This document shows, one piece after another, positions 25,179 to 53,934 of a DNA stretch of 64,000 nt; the stretch's first letter is position 1, and the number at the start of each line of letters is the position of its first letter. The notes below the pieces were generated by a model that did no database searches, was not told the DNA's origin, and saw only the letters and a program-made list of their open reading frames with translations. The DNA is from Arabidopsis thaliana (lineage: Eukaryota; Streptophyta; Magnoliopsida; Brassicales; Brassicaceae). The position numbers and the translations under genes are program-made. The stretch lies in assembly GCF_000001735.4 (NCBI RefSeq), contig NC_003076.8, positions 19,347,835 through 19,411,834 on the forward strand, in the 5' to 3' direction.

Positions 25179-26478
25179 TTACATATTGCTACACCAGTAC
25201 GCATAGTGTTCATCTCTCCTATGGATGCTCACCAGACCACCGCATTGCAGACAGATAAAACTGCTTCCGTCAGCAAAGGCATCGAGCATGATCTGTGACC
25301 TCCCACTTTTTTCCAGAATAGATATGCCATGAGCATCTGCTGTAACTGTTTGTTTGGTACCAAATAAGTCTTTTGACGTTGTAGGCTCATCAAGCGCAAG
25401 AGGCTGTGCTTCTGTAATGGCACACTCTGCAAATATAGAAGCCAGCTGATCCATACTAGCTGTTTCTTGAATTCTACGCTTGTATAGTTCACGGGTACGG
25501 TTCAGTATCTGAAGAACCGCCTCATCTCCTCCTTGGTTTCTCATCGCCATCACGACCTGTTCAGAACAAGATAGACTGACTCAGAGAAGGGTTTTATAAA
25601 GAAAAAAGTTCAATGCAGTCTATATACATAAAGTGAACGATCTTGCCATCATACATTTCCACAAATGCGACGAACACTCAAAAACTAATCCCAATTCAAC
25701 AAGGAAGATACTTTTATCATTCTAAAAGTCTAAAAGAAGATAAAGAATAAAATTGCAATCTTATGATAAAGAAAGAGATCATTCTTCTAAGATGTTATAT
25801 CTGCTTAATATGATATAGGCAATGGATGAAGGCGATGTGATAGGATTCAAACCAGTAAACTACTTCTTTATTCACATCCCCAATGAAGAGACAGATTTGA
25901 CCAAGGGATGTAGTTGATGCTGCTGTATCTGTTGGCAACTAGACGAAGGAAATGAATGTAACAGATCAAGCTTATGATACAGCTATAAAATCTGTCGTTA
26001 TAATGGTAACTAATGATCATAGGGATAGAATCACGAAACAAAATCTATCTTTGTGATTCATCAAGCAATACACAAGCCTCCAAAAACTAGTTGTTCATCC
26101 TTATGCGAGAAAATAAATTTAACTTCTAAGTAGTATTTAATTTCGATTCTGTGACTTAAGCCACAAATTCCAACGAACCCTAATTCTAAAGTCCAAAGAT
26201 AGCAAAAAGAGCACCAAAGCAAAACCGTATAGATATAGAACAATTGGAAGAAGAATGTTTGAAATGCAAAAATAGGGAAAATTTCGGAGATGGAAAAGAA
26301 ACCTAGAAGAAATCGAAAATACCGCTTGGAGAGCTTGAGATGGTTCTCCTTGATCGACGAGCCTACGAGCGGCGGAGAGGAAATCTCTGGCGGTGCTGGG
26401 TTTGTCGAGCATGAACGTTTCGGTGGAGTCGGCATCCATCATCTGCGTCTCGGGATCACTGTTCATGGCGTAATGCAT
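25179..26478 (-). CDS. Small conserved protein of unknown function with a C-terminal Cys cluster
   Basis: Two exons, 26478-26323 and 25556-25179, give 177 residues from the first ATG ([20 protein letters not shown]). The frame is open upstream, but only through a TTG. The N-terminal third contains a helix-rich segment ([21 protein letters not shown]) that resembles a repeat-type helical hairpin. The C-terminus has CLQCGGLV then a His and a final Cys (YWCSN), which could bind zinc. I do not recognise a named family. I recall the locus as At5g47830, of unknown function. Intron 1 is 766 nt, long for this region. Confidence 0.85.
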
Positions 26479-37974: not shown

Positions 37975-38513
37975 TGATTTTTTGTCTGAGCAAAATTGAG
38001 AGTTGGGGAAGAGGAAAACAGGAGAAGAGAGTGGTAAATTGTGAGAGACATGACGTTACATTTAGTAGTAGGTGACTAGGTGAGGTAGGTGGAAGCTCTA
38101 AACCAAACCAACCCCTTTTTTGGTCTTTGAATTTATTAACAAGTTTTTATTACAAAACGATTTTGTTTGGGATATTATTCAAGGCAACTTGTTTTATAAA
38201 CCCAAGTGTGGTTCATGCCAAATGTTTAATTATAAATTTTCTCTTTTTTTTAACTGAAGAAATTCCAATGCCGAATTTTAGATTAATTCTTTGAACTTAT
38301 AGAATTTAGGATTTAATTAAGGTTTTAAAGACATCCATGTAATAAAAACCCAAATTCTCTCAGACAAGAGTATTCCAATTCTGAAATAAAACTGACCAAA
38401 GTAAATTATTAAAGAAACACCAACTCAAAATAAAACTCCATAAATGTCTAGGCACCAACAACGCTACCAAAGCCAAGGCTTCTTCACTCTCCACATGTTC
38501 CTTCATTCATCAC
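37975..38513. other. RAD52-2 upstream and eRF1-1 downstream spacer
   Basis: AT-rich spacer between two minus-strand genes. It carries the RAD52-2 promoter and the distal 3' UTR of eRF1-1. Confidence 0.5.
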
Positions 38514-38590
38514 CTGTTTTAACACCAGTATCGAGATTAAGGTAGGGTTTTCAAAGAAGAAACCTAAGTTTAAAGAGATCGATCATTTAC
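38514..38590 (-). promoter_or_regulatory. 3'-UTR intron of eRF1-1 (NMD trigger)
   Basis: On the minus strand the sequence GTGAAG|GTAAAT opens a 77-nt candidate intron that closes at TTAAAACAG|GTGATG. It lies in the 3' UTR, 130 nt downstream of the normal UGA and 20 nt downstream of the second in-frame UGA at 38612-38610. A 3'-UTR intron more than about 55 nt past the stop is a known NMD trigger in plants. Confidence 0.65.
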
Positions 38591-38656
38591 CTTCACAAAA
38601 GATGCTTCTTCAATTTATTTTCAAATTCTTCAGCGCGACCCCGACAGCCCGCGCAA

Positions 38657-38697
38657 GCTGGTTCAGGCATGGCGGAGCGCCATCTTCCCCAACCAGC
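38657..38697 (-). promoter_or_regulatory. GC-rich nested hairpin downstream of the eRF1-1 stop codon
   Basis: In the mRNA, GCTGGTT (24 nt after the UGA) pairs perfectly with AACCAGC, and inside it ATGGCG pairs perfectly with CGCCAT around a CTC loop. A further short GCGCG/CGCGC pairing is possible just downstream. The block is far more GC-rich than its surroundings. A stem-loop at this distance is the kind of structure that can aid stop-codon readthrough. Confidence 0.65.
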
Positions 38698-38714
38698 GAT
38701 GGTGAGGATTTGAT

Positions 38715-38723
38715 TGATTGTCA
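38715..38723 (-). promoter_or_regulatory. Readthrough-type stop context of eRF1-1 (UGA CAA UCA)
   Basis: On the minus strand the stop reads UGA followed by CAAUCA. This fits the stop-CAR-YYA consensus that promotes readthrough in plants. The frame stays open for 36 codons after it, to UGA at 38612-38610. Confidence 0.8.
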
Positions 38724-40031
38724 TTCCGAATCATCATCAAGAGCTTCTCCATCCTCGGAATCAAAGGCAGTCATGTCAAGCTGGTAACGAAGTATTCCTC
38801 CGATTCCTCCAAACCCTCTGCAAAACTGAGAACCTTCCTGTGACTTGTTGGTCACAAACTCTAACGCACAACCAAAACGCCTGTACTCATTGGCAAGCCA
38901 CTCCAGTAACGACAGCTTCTCCTCCACGTCCAAAGCCAAGTCACTGTCGGCTACTTTGAAGTTCTCAGTGTTGGCTTCTTGTTCCTTGTTCAGGTGTTTG
39001 ATCACAGTTTCACCAGTCGCACTGTTCTTCATCACATATCTGTTGATATCGAGATTTTCCCATACAATCAGTGTCTCAATAGCACCAGACTCCAAAGCGT
39101 TCAACGTATCTTCCACACCAAACACATACTTCCCCGTGTCCTGGCTTATCTCCTCAAAGTACTTCCCAATCAGACGCTTCTCTTGGATAAACTTCACATT
39201 CGCAAGGATTTCAGCTGACAGCTCAATAGCTTGATTAAAACCATTTTCTCCTCCATATGATACATCCACCACATTCAGTATCTTCGCAGCCAGTCGGGGA
39301 TCAAACATATCAGACTGACTCAACTCAGTCTTGAAATCTGCTGAACCAGCAAGAATCAGTCCAGACACATTAGGCTGACTTGTAGCAGGATTGATGTAGT
39401 ACTGTGTGGCGAGCTCAGCAGTCTTCCTAACATAATTGTGACGCTTCTCCATACGGAGACGGGCAAAACGAAGAGCAGACTGTCCTCCTCTTCCGTGTTT
39501 CTTCGGAAGATCAACAGAGAACTTGTGAAGTACCTCACGGGTGTTACCACTAAGAGTTCCAAAGAGAGTCCCGTTTCCATCCATTACAATGAAACCAAAC
39601 TTGTCATCAGACTCCAACAATTCATTCAAAGCTTCCGTGTGAAACTTGTTGTCACAAAGGTAGAGAGAAGCATTGATGGGTCTGAAAGGCTCAAAGTCAA
39701 TAGTAACCTTCTTCTCCTTACCATCCTCATTAACAATGGTTCCAGTATAGAGTACAAGACCATTAGGAGGGACCCTGTTGTAAAGTTTCAACCTTTGCTG
39801 AGCAGAAGTTATGGCCCCCAAAACAGATTGACGATTGACTCTGCTCTTGATGTTTGACGCGGTTCCATACTCATCACCCAACATCTTGGTAACACGAGAG
39901 ACCTGATCACGCGGAGGCATGATGAGTGAGATCATGCTGGTTCCATTACCCCTAGCAGCTTCAAGTGATTTGATCAGCTTCTTAATCTTCCATATCTCAA
40001 TGTTCTTGTCGTCATCGTTTTTGTCTCCCAT
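38721..40031 (-). CDS. ERF1-1: Eukaryotic release factor 1 (eRF1-1)
   Basis: An uninterrupted coding exon of 436 residues starting [10 protein letters not shown]; the frame is open upstream only through a TTG. eRF1 recognises all three stop codons and triggers peptide release with eRF3. All hallmarks are present: NIKS at 60-63 and YLCDNKF at 124-130 (stop-codon reading), and GGQ at 182-184 (peptidyl-tRNA hydrolysis). The C-terminus is acidic ([13 protein letters not shown]). A 619-nt intron in the 5' UTR runs from 40670 to 40052 (donor GTACTTT). The stop codon is in a leaky context and a 3'-UTR intron follows, both described separately, which suggests feedback control of its own expression. 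I recall the locus as At5g47880. Confidence 0.96.
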
Positions 40032-49750: not shown

Positions 49751-52700
49751 ATGAAAATGAGACGAGGCAATTCAAGTAACGACCATGAACTTGGGATTCT
49801 ACGAGGAGCTAACTCGGACACCAACTCGGACACGGAGAGCATCGCTAGCGACCGTGGTGCCTTTAGCGGTCCGCTTGGCCGGCCTAAACGTGCGTCCAAG
49901 AAAAACGCAAGATTCGCCGACGATCTTCCCAAGAGAAGCAATAGTGTTGCTGGCGGCCGTGGTGATGACGATGAGTACGTGGAGATCACGCTAGACATCA
50001 GGGACGACTCGGTGGCCGTCCATAGTGTCCAACAAGCAGCTGGAGGTGGAGGCCACCTGGAGGACCCGGAGCTAGCCCTTCTTACGAAGAAGACTCTCGA
50101 GAGCAGCCTCAACAACACCACCTCCTTATCTTTCTTCCGAAGCACCTCCTCACGCATCAAGAACGCCTCCCGCGAGCTCCGCCGCGTGTTCTCTAGACGT
50201 CCCTCCCCGGCCGTGCGGCGGTTTGACCGCACGAGCTCCGCGGCCATCCACGCACTCAAAGGTCTCAAGTTCATTGCCACCAAGACGGCCGCATGGCCGG
50301 CCGTCGACCAACGTTTCGATAAACTCTCCGCTGATTCCAACGGCCTCTTACTCTCTGCCAAGTTTTGGGAATGCTTAGGTAAGTAAATCACTTCTTACTA
50401 AGCAATTCTATTAGTACTATATGTTTCCATTTTTGTGTTAGTCTCATTTTTGTTTTGTTTTTTACTCTAGGAATGAATAAGGAATCTAAAGACTTCGCTG
50501 ACCAGCTCTTTAGAGCATTAGCTCGCCGGAATAACGTCTCCGGCGATGCAATCACAAAGGAACAGCTTAGGATATTCTGGGAACAGATCTCAGACGAAAG
50601 CTTTGATGCCAAACTCCAAGTCTTTTTTGACATGTAAGCTTTTTTTTACATATCTTCACCTAACCCACAATAAATATATAACGCGTAATCACTATTTGTC
50701 GTTTAATATTGACTCTTAATGAAAATTAAACGGTCATCAGAATTTAAGGACCAAAAGTAGTAATATTAATCATTTGTGGAGTTTTGGTGGATTTGTAACT
50801 AATATATGACATCACTGTTTGGTCAGGGTGGACAAAGATGAAGATGGGCGAGTAACAGAAGAAGAGGTGGCTGAGGTGAGAAAACACACACACCACTCAA
50901 TAATTATCTTTTTCAAATATTTTATTATATTTATACATTTTTTTTATCTTATATTTATTCATATTCCTGGTTGAATTTTTTTTCTCTTATTTTATACGTT
51001 ATTCTTGGTTGATTATTTTGACAATTTTGTCCACGCGCAAATCCCCACTGACTTTATCTGCTGACGTTTACTATTAACATCATCAATATATTAACTTCAT
51101 GTGAACACGACAAAATGGTAATAGATAGATAGAGTAGTAGTCTTTGTTACTTTAGCTTAGGTTATTAATGTTTCAAATACTTTAGCTTTTGTTTTCTAAT
51201 TTGTTGGTAATTTATTGCAGATTATTAGTCTTAGTGCTTCTGCAAACAAGCTCTCAAATATTCAAAAGCAAGCCAAAGAATATGCGGCACTGATAATGGA
51301 AGAGTTGGACCCAGACAATGCTGGGTTTATTATGGTACGTGTGGTCCACTTTCACCCACTCAATCACACTAATGGTATTATGTACGTCGTAAATTTAACC
51401 ACTCTTAAAATACTAGAAAAAACGTGGAAAAACATAACGTTCTAGAAGTCTTTAGTGGTCAAAATTGGGTCACCATGATGTTTTTTAATTTCCAACTTAT
51501 TGGGCCATCTTGAACTTTTTACCAAACCAATCAACAAAATCTCGACAATGGGTGGTTAGTGGTTACGATATGAAGAAATGACCAATAAAATTGTAAAATA
51601 TATGAACTAACACTATAATCCAAGCTTAGAAAGTCTTAGGCGGCTTCCGATAGTATATTGTTTTTTAATTATTGGAGAAACCTATGAAAAGTGTTTTTAA
51701 GAAAAACAGTTTGGAACATTAATGTTTTATTGTAACGTTTTAGTTAATTATATGATATGGACATTGGTGAAACAGATCGAAAACTTGGAAATGTTGCTAT
51801 TACAAGCACCAAACCAGTCGGTGCGGATGGGAGACAGCAGGATACTTAGTCAGATGTTAAGTCAGAAGCTTAGACCGGCAAAAGAGAGCAACCCTTTAGT
51901 GAGATGGTCGGAGAAAATCAAATATTTCATACTTGACAATTGGCAGAGACTATGGATAATGATGTTATGGCTTGGCATCTGTGGTGGCCTCTTTACTTAT
52001 AAATTCATTCAGTACAAGAACAAAGCTGCCTATGGTGTCATGGGTTATTGCGTTTGTGTCGCCAAAGGAGGCGCCGAGACTCTCAAATTCAACATGGCTC
52101 TCATATTGTTGCCTGTTTGTCGAAACACCATCACTTGGCTTAGGAACAAGACTAAGCTTGGTACTGTCGTTCCTTTTGATGATAGTCTTAACTTCCACAA
52201 GGTTATTGCAAGCGGGATAGTCGTCGGTGTTTTACTCCATGCGGGTGCCCATTTAACGTGTGATTTTCCACGTTTAATTGCCGCGGATGAGGACACCTAT
52301 GAGCCGATGGAAAAATACTTTGGGGATCAACCGACTAGCTACTGGTGGTTTGTGAAAGGAGTGGAAGGATGGACTGGCATTGTGATGGTTGTGCTAATGG
52401 CTATAGCCTTTACACTCGCGACGCCTTGGTTCCGACGTAACAAGCTTAACTTACCTAACTTCCTCAAGAAGCTTACCGGTTTCAACGCCTTTTGGTACAC
52501 CCACCATTTGTTCATCATTGTTTATGCTCTTCTCATTGTCCATGGTATCAAGCTCTACCTCACAAAGATTTGGTATCAGAAAACGGTACTCTCTTCAAAC
52601 CTCATTTTATCTGTTTTAATTTCTTATTTTCTTTCCTTTTTCCGGTTAATAACATTTATTACCTGTTTGTATGATTCTTGTAGACATGGATGTATCTTGC

Positions 52701-53934
52701 TGTACCCATCCTTCTATATGCATCGGAGAGGCTGCTCCGTGCTTTCAGATCAAGCATCAAACCGGTTAAGATGATCAAGGTCAGATATATTTCTATTTAT
52801 CTCTTGAAAACCTTATGTTTCAAGAAATATTTCAACTAATACTTTTAAACCATCTTATTTTATAGTTCTTTTTGATAAAAGTTTGAAAATTGCCTTTGAA
52901 CTTAATCTATATATATGTAACAACAGGTGGCTGTTTACCCCGGGAACGTGTTGTCTCTACACATGACGAAGCCACAAGGATTCAAATACAAAAGTGGACA
53001 GTTCATGTTGGTGAACTGCCGAGCCGTATCTCCATTCGAATGGCATCCTTTCTCAATCACATCAGCTCCCGGAGACGATTACCTGAGCGTACATATCCGC
53101 ACTCTCGGTGACTGGACACGTAAGCTCAGGACCGTTTTCTCCGAGGTTTGCAAACCTCCTACCGCCGGTAAAAGCGGTCTTCTCCGAGCAGACGGAGGAG
53201 ATGGAAACCTCCCGTTCCCGAAGGTCCTTATCGACGGTCCATACGGTGCTCCCGCACAAGACTACAAGAAATACGACGTGGTACTCCTCGTAGGTCTCGG
53301 CATTGGAGCCACGCCTATGATCAGTATCCTTAAGGACATCATCAACAACATGAAAGGTCCTGACCGCGACAGCGACATTGAGAACAATAACAGTAACAAC
53401 AATAGTAAAGGGTTTAAGACAAGGAAAGCTTATTTCTACTGGGTGACTAGGGAACAAGGATCATTCGAGTGGTTCAAGGGAATAATGGACGAGATTTCGG
53501 AGTTAGACGAGGAAGGAATCATCGAGCTTCACAATTATTGCACGAGTGTGTACGAGGAAGGTGATGCAAGAGTGGCTCTCATTGCCATGCTTCAGTCGTT
53601 GCAACACGCTAAGAACGGTGTGGATGTTGTGTCGGGTACACGTGTCAAGTCCCACTTCGCTAAACCTAACTGGAGACAAGTCTACAAGAAGATCGCTGTT
53701 CAACATCCCGGCAAAAGAATAGGTAACTAATCTCGACCGTTAATCTCGTTATGTACGTGATGTTGTATAATAATTAATAAAGTGATGAATTTAGACTAAA
53801 TACTAATATGAATTTTGATTGCAGGAGTCTTCTACTGTGGAATGCCAGGAATGATAAAGGAATTAAAAAATCTAGCTTTGGATTTTTCTCGAAAGACAAC
53901 TACCAAGTTTGACTTCCACAAAGAGAACTTCTAG
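49751..53934 (+). CDS. RBOHD: Respiratory burst oxidase homologue D (NADPH oxidase)
   Basis: Exons 49751-50378, 50471-50633, 50827-50875, 51221-51334, 51776-52585, 52684-52779, 52927-53722 and 53825-53934 give 921 residues, the length I remember for A. thaliana RBOHD (At5g47910). It makes superoxide in the apoplast using cytosolic NADPH, in immunity and stress signalling. The cytosolic N-terminus is Ser/Arg-rich with known kinase target sites. An EF-hand reads [13 protein letters not shown] at about 264-276, with a degenerate second one after it. A ferric-reductase-type six-helix membrane domain follows, with histidines in HKVIASG, HAGAHL and THHLF. The FAD site HPFSITSAP is at about 660, and NADPH-binding DGPYGAP and GLGIGATP lie near 710-750. 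Exon 1 is unusually GC-rich for the window. Confidence 0.97.

Follow-up and report, generated by a model that had tools for sequence, protein, structure and literature searches.

The window analysed here is a stretch of 64,000 nucleotides of Arabidopsis thaliana DNA (contig NC_003076.8, 19347835-19411834), and its minus strand carries a gene which we take to be eRF1-1, AT5G47880. The encoded protein contains the Pfam domains eRF1_1, eRF1_2 and eRF1_3, all of which score over their cut-offs. The gene and the region immediately beyond it contain the following features:

40031-38721, minus strand: eRF1-1 coding region, a single uninterrupted frame of 436 amino acids plus the stop
38723-38721, minus strand: first stop, UGA, with GAA immediately before it
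38720-38715, minus strand: CAAUCA, a CARYYA readthrough context in the sequence directly after the first stop
38720-38613, minus strand: in-frame readthrough extension of 36 codons, translation QSIKSSPSLVGEDGAPPCLNQLARAVGVALKNLKIN
38612-38610, minus strand: second in-frame stop, UGA, in the sequence
38590-38514, minus strand: 3'-UTR intron candidate of 77 nt, GT...AG, read from the sequence as GTAAATGA...GTGTTAAAACAG

An earlier, sequence-only reading of this DNA had described UGA CAA UCA at the eRF1-1 stop as a fit to CARYYA, followed by a 36-codon frame to a second UGA at 38612-38610 and by an intron candidate of 77 nt that starts 130 nt past the first stop. The stop context agrees to the base, and the coordinates of both the frame and the intron candidate, whose ends are GTAAAT...AAACAG, hold as well. 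The position given for the intron start also stands, and only one spacing has to be corrected: the 5' splice site lies 19 nt from the second stop, the earlier value of 20 having been counted to the first intron base. From the first stop the distance to the same 5' splice site is 130 nt.

At the base composition of the window, the probability that CARYYA follows any given stop is approximately 0.0023. The string TGACARYYA occurs three times on both strands of the 64 kb, and one of these occurrences is the eRF1-1 stop. By simple arithmetic an open frame of 36 codons is unremarkable taken alone, as (61/64)^36 is approximately 0.18. No Pfam match for the 36-amino-acid extension was obtained at E 0.01, which counts against the circuit discussed below. 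Within 38300-38900 no Rfam family matched even at E values up to 1, across the whole window none reached the gathering score, and a tRNA search of the window returned none. Comparison of the eRF1-1 protein with a collection of bacterial and archaeal contigs gave 39 pattern stretches, none of which was confirmed as a relative.

A search of the genome (119,662,809 bases in 7 contigs) with Pfam PF03463 identified at least five places, namely eRF1-1, the full-length eRF1 genes L002 and L003, and two further places, L001 and L005, which are presumably Pelota genes. The stop of L002 is TAA followed by GTAAGA and that of L003 is TAA followed by AGTGGG, neither of which is CARYYA. The 130-nt stretch from the eRF1-1 stop onward has no second copy in the genome at E 0.001, the only match being to itself. 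Because both other genes end in UAA without CARYYA and this stretch is unmatched, the leaky stop is a property of a single gene among the three eRF1 genes identified in the genome. Its absence from the other two is, like the anatomy of the stop region, established directly.

The sequence-only reading had suspected that a circuit of this kind was already known. This is the case: autoregulation of eRF1-1 by readthrough and NMD has been in print since 2017 (Nyiko et al. 2017, NAR 45:4174, as described in PMC11062462, PMC6755094 and PMC9293766). According to the review PMC11062462, which cites Nyiko et al. 2017, eRF1 was the first case of readthrough known in Arabidopsis, with a long 3'UTR and a distant intron; when eRF1 is high, readthrough is disfavoured and NMD promoted, and the reverse holds when it is low. 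PMC6755094 names the CARYYA element, a first stop (TC1) and a downstream stop (TC2) in eRF1-1, of which TC2 is by our inference the UGA at 38612-38610, the in-frame TGA found 36 codons on. The same paper states that eRF1-1 has an intron more than 50 nt past its stop, in line with the 130 nt found here, so that the 3'-UTR intron of the earlier reading is a published feature. It further reports that eRF1-1 mRNA is elevated in upf1-1, the rise anticipated for upf mutants, and after cycloheximide, and that rescue of the mRNA from NMD by the readthrough element is only partial. An eRF1-1 3' decay fragment that starts 22 nt past TC1 builds up in xrn4 and is not found in upf1-1 or following cycloheximide (PMC6755094); plants are described there as missing an SMG6 orthologue. 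With NMD sensitivity, readthrough and negative feedback all described, the interpretation of this stop region as leaky and self-regulating through NMD is well supported by these sources.

Ribosome footprints past the first stop, to which the earlier reading had looked for evidence of readthrough, are where published data point the other way. Sahoo et al. (PMC9293766) found none in the eRF1-1 inter-stop region in public ribosome profiling, and cite eRF1-1 as an example of under-detection while accepting the published readthrough. Readthrough of eRF1-1 is not visible in the data of that study, and this counts against the circuit. Aethionema arabicum also has an annotated 3'-UTR intron, 124 bp past the stop (PMC8641386); the difference of six from the Arabidopsis value of 130 preserves frame, which is a weak hint.

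The published plant circuit concerns the same gene, with a leaky stop, an NMD-inducing 3'UTR containing an intron, and a downstream stop, and comparison with the descriptions considered here revealed no essential difference from the locus in the window. Among other systems, the CARYYA rule for readthrough is that of the tobamovirus UAG-CAR-YYA (type I) signal (PMC3542737). The eRF1-1 stop carries the defining CAR-YYA of type I in the form CAAUCA, right after the stop, and like the tobamovirus signal it has two adenosines before the stop. It differs in that the stop is UGA rather than UAG and the gene is cellular, and in that its readthrough serves control of mRNA stability, whereas the viral signal extends a protein. 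Other release-factor genes show partial likenesses (PMC3521657). In the bacterial RF2 frameshift, as in eRF1-1, a release-factor gene senses its own level via its own stop codon with negative feedback. The class-I release factor of Mimivirus and Megavirus is likewise an eRF1-type gene with a leaky UGA-C, but the recoding there lies in the 5' region and is required for the full-length protein, and the sections of PMC3521657 considered here do not mention a link to NMD.

We conclude with high confidence (probability of roughly 0.93) that the locus is the plant eRF1-1 readthrough/NMD autoregulatory circuit. Most ribosomes would stop at the UGA at 38723-38721, leaving an exon junction complex and a long 3'UTR downstream, and because these are left there the mRNA would be degraded by UPF1-dependent NMD. 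A minority would read the first UGA as sense, owing to its CAAUCA context, and would terminate at 38612-38610. Exon junction complexes lie approximately 20-24 nt upstream of the junction, which would put the complex over the second stop, at about 38614-38610. A ribosome ending at the second stop would then encounter or dislodge the complex formed at the 38591/38513 junction and remove the NMD signal; this geometry fits protection of eRF1-1 mRNA by displacement of the junction complex, which is probably how readthrough acts. More eRF1 would mean fewer readthrough events and consequently less eRF1-1 mRNA.

The stretch between the two stops also differs in composition from its surroundings, with 54% G+C against 38% for the window. 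Its richest 60 bases reach 72% G+C and form one of two such patches in the 64 kb. The other, equally rich 60-base patch is located within 50158-50264. Folding of the stretch predicts a structure that lies next to a published decay end:

38697-38633, minus strand: predicted GC-rich double hairpin, composed of hairpin A (38697-38657) and hairpin B (38654-38633)
about 38699, minus strand: 5' end of the UPF1-dependent decay fragment, by our own mapping with 38720 as +1, accurate to plus or minus a base or so

The 114 nt running from the first stop to the second fold at -41.9 kcal/mol (z -2.72), and 1 of 200 shuffles did equally well. When 76 windows of 100 nt were taken along the spliced mRNA, between the start codon and position 38350, their z averaged 0.04, with the minimum, -2.69, in the inter-stop stretch; values below -2.7 were found in 1% of 300 random control windows. 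The hairpin core at 38697-38633, whose boundaries were picked after folding, reaches -37.3 kcal/mol with a z of -3.36, matched by 5 of 2000 shuffles. When windows of 65 nt were folded on both strands in 3-base steps, none of 42,624 reached -37.3 kcal/mol, and the best of them, at -34.3 kcal/mol, is the double hairpin itself shifted by one base. The next most stable folds in the window are at 53245-53309 on the minus strand (-33.9 kcal/mol) and 26350-26414 on the plus strand (-33.8 kcal/mol), both of them without an Rfam match at the gathering score. The three helices that were measured pair with a mean probability of 0.95-1.00 in five sequence contexts.

Between the first stop and this robust hairpin lie 23 nt, and viral readthrough structures typically start about 8 nt past the stop (PMC3542737). 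The type II signal, in which UGA is followed by CGG or CUA and often by a stem-loop about 8 nt on, therefore does not describe eRF1-1, where the triplet is CAA and the spacing longer. A lower stem that would shorten the gap to 7 nt has a pairing probability of 0.78 in the isolated 114 nt and of 0.00-0.12 in the three longer contexts that include it. Because this stem is weak in the longer contexts, we dropped the classical form of the proposal, a readthrough stimulator located about 8 nt past the stop.

In a looser form, the double hairpin may be a third working part of the circuit, either raising readthrough above the level due to CAAUCA or holding the terminating ribosome or UPF1. We consider this possible but doubtful, and any part played by the hairpin is putative. 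If true, a hairpin that holds the ribosome or UPF1 would make the NMD cut fall just before it, and the eRF1-1 signal would combine a type I context with a structure downstream of it. An alternative that is compatible with the circuit, and to which we give about even odds, is that the double hairpin has no function and is a neutral, GC-rich feature that arose by accident in this lineage. The structure has been examined in one species, the z of the whole inter-stop stretch is moderate (a similar value being found among the random windows), and the core limits were set after folding; at two other places the window folds to within 4 kcal/mol of the core, and the distance from the stop is greater than for typical readthrough structures. 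Against neutrality stand the stability of the core, unmatched in the scan, the position between two stops, and the mapped decay end at about 38699, approximately 2 nt upstream of where hairpin A begins. PMC6755094 nowhere uses the words hairpin, secondary structure or stem-loop, and in PMC9293766 stem-loop and RNA structure appear only in general statements and a reference. The predicted double hairpin is the main addition made here and is testable, and we make no claim that it is unpublished.

Two other explanations would replace readthrough as the deciding event, and each starts from a further element of the same region:

38619-38614, minus strand: AATAAA, a possible early polyadenylation signal, beside the second stop
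38724-38593, minus strand: overlapping frame of 43 codons, the AUG of which shares bases with the first stop (AUGA)

It could be the choice of poly(A) site, not translation, that decides the fate of the mRNA: use of this AATAAA, which lies 23 nt upstream of the first intron base, would place the end of the mRNA close to the 5' splice site, and since early use drops the intron from the mRNA, the product would escape NMD. To our knowledge AATAAA is not required by plant poly(A) sites, which counts against this explanation. PMC6755094 does put a downstream stop close to the polyadenylation signal, as the explanation would have it, but the same paper reports a 0.5-kb 3' fragment and a 1.7-kb full-length RNA on eRF1-1 northern blots, and these suggest that the form with the long 3'UTR is the main one. 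We regard the choice of poly(A) site as improbable. In the other explanation, ribosomes restart at the AUGA and translate the 43 codons, and it is reinitiation rather than readthrough that removes the junction complex. The sequence does contain an AUG overlapping the stop, as termination-reinitiation demands of an overlapping or adjoining AUG (AUGA at 38724-38721), and an open frame whose stop is separated from the 5' splice site by 2 nt. An open frame of 43 codons is, however, not unusual, as (61/64)^43 is approximately 0.13, and protection is ascribed to readthrough in PMC11062462, PMC6755094 and PMC9293766. No reference to the AUGA overlap was met in the passages considered here. The 43-amino-acid product of this frame has no Pfam match. 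Reinitiation seems to us very improbable.

Of the features described here, the predicted double hairpin most deserves a test at the bench. Mutating it would be a simple way of testing what sets the level of readthrough, and also where plants, which are without an SMG6 orthologue, cut NMD targets. More generally, eRF1-1 illustrates cleanly how a termination factor gauges its own activity via the stop codon of its own gene.
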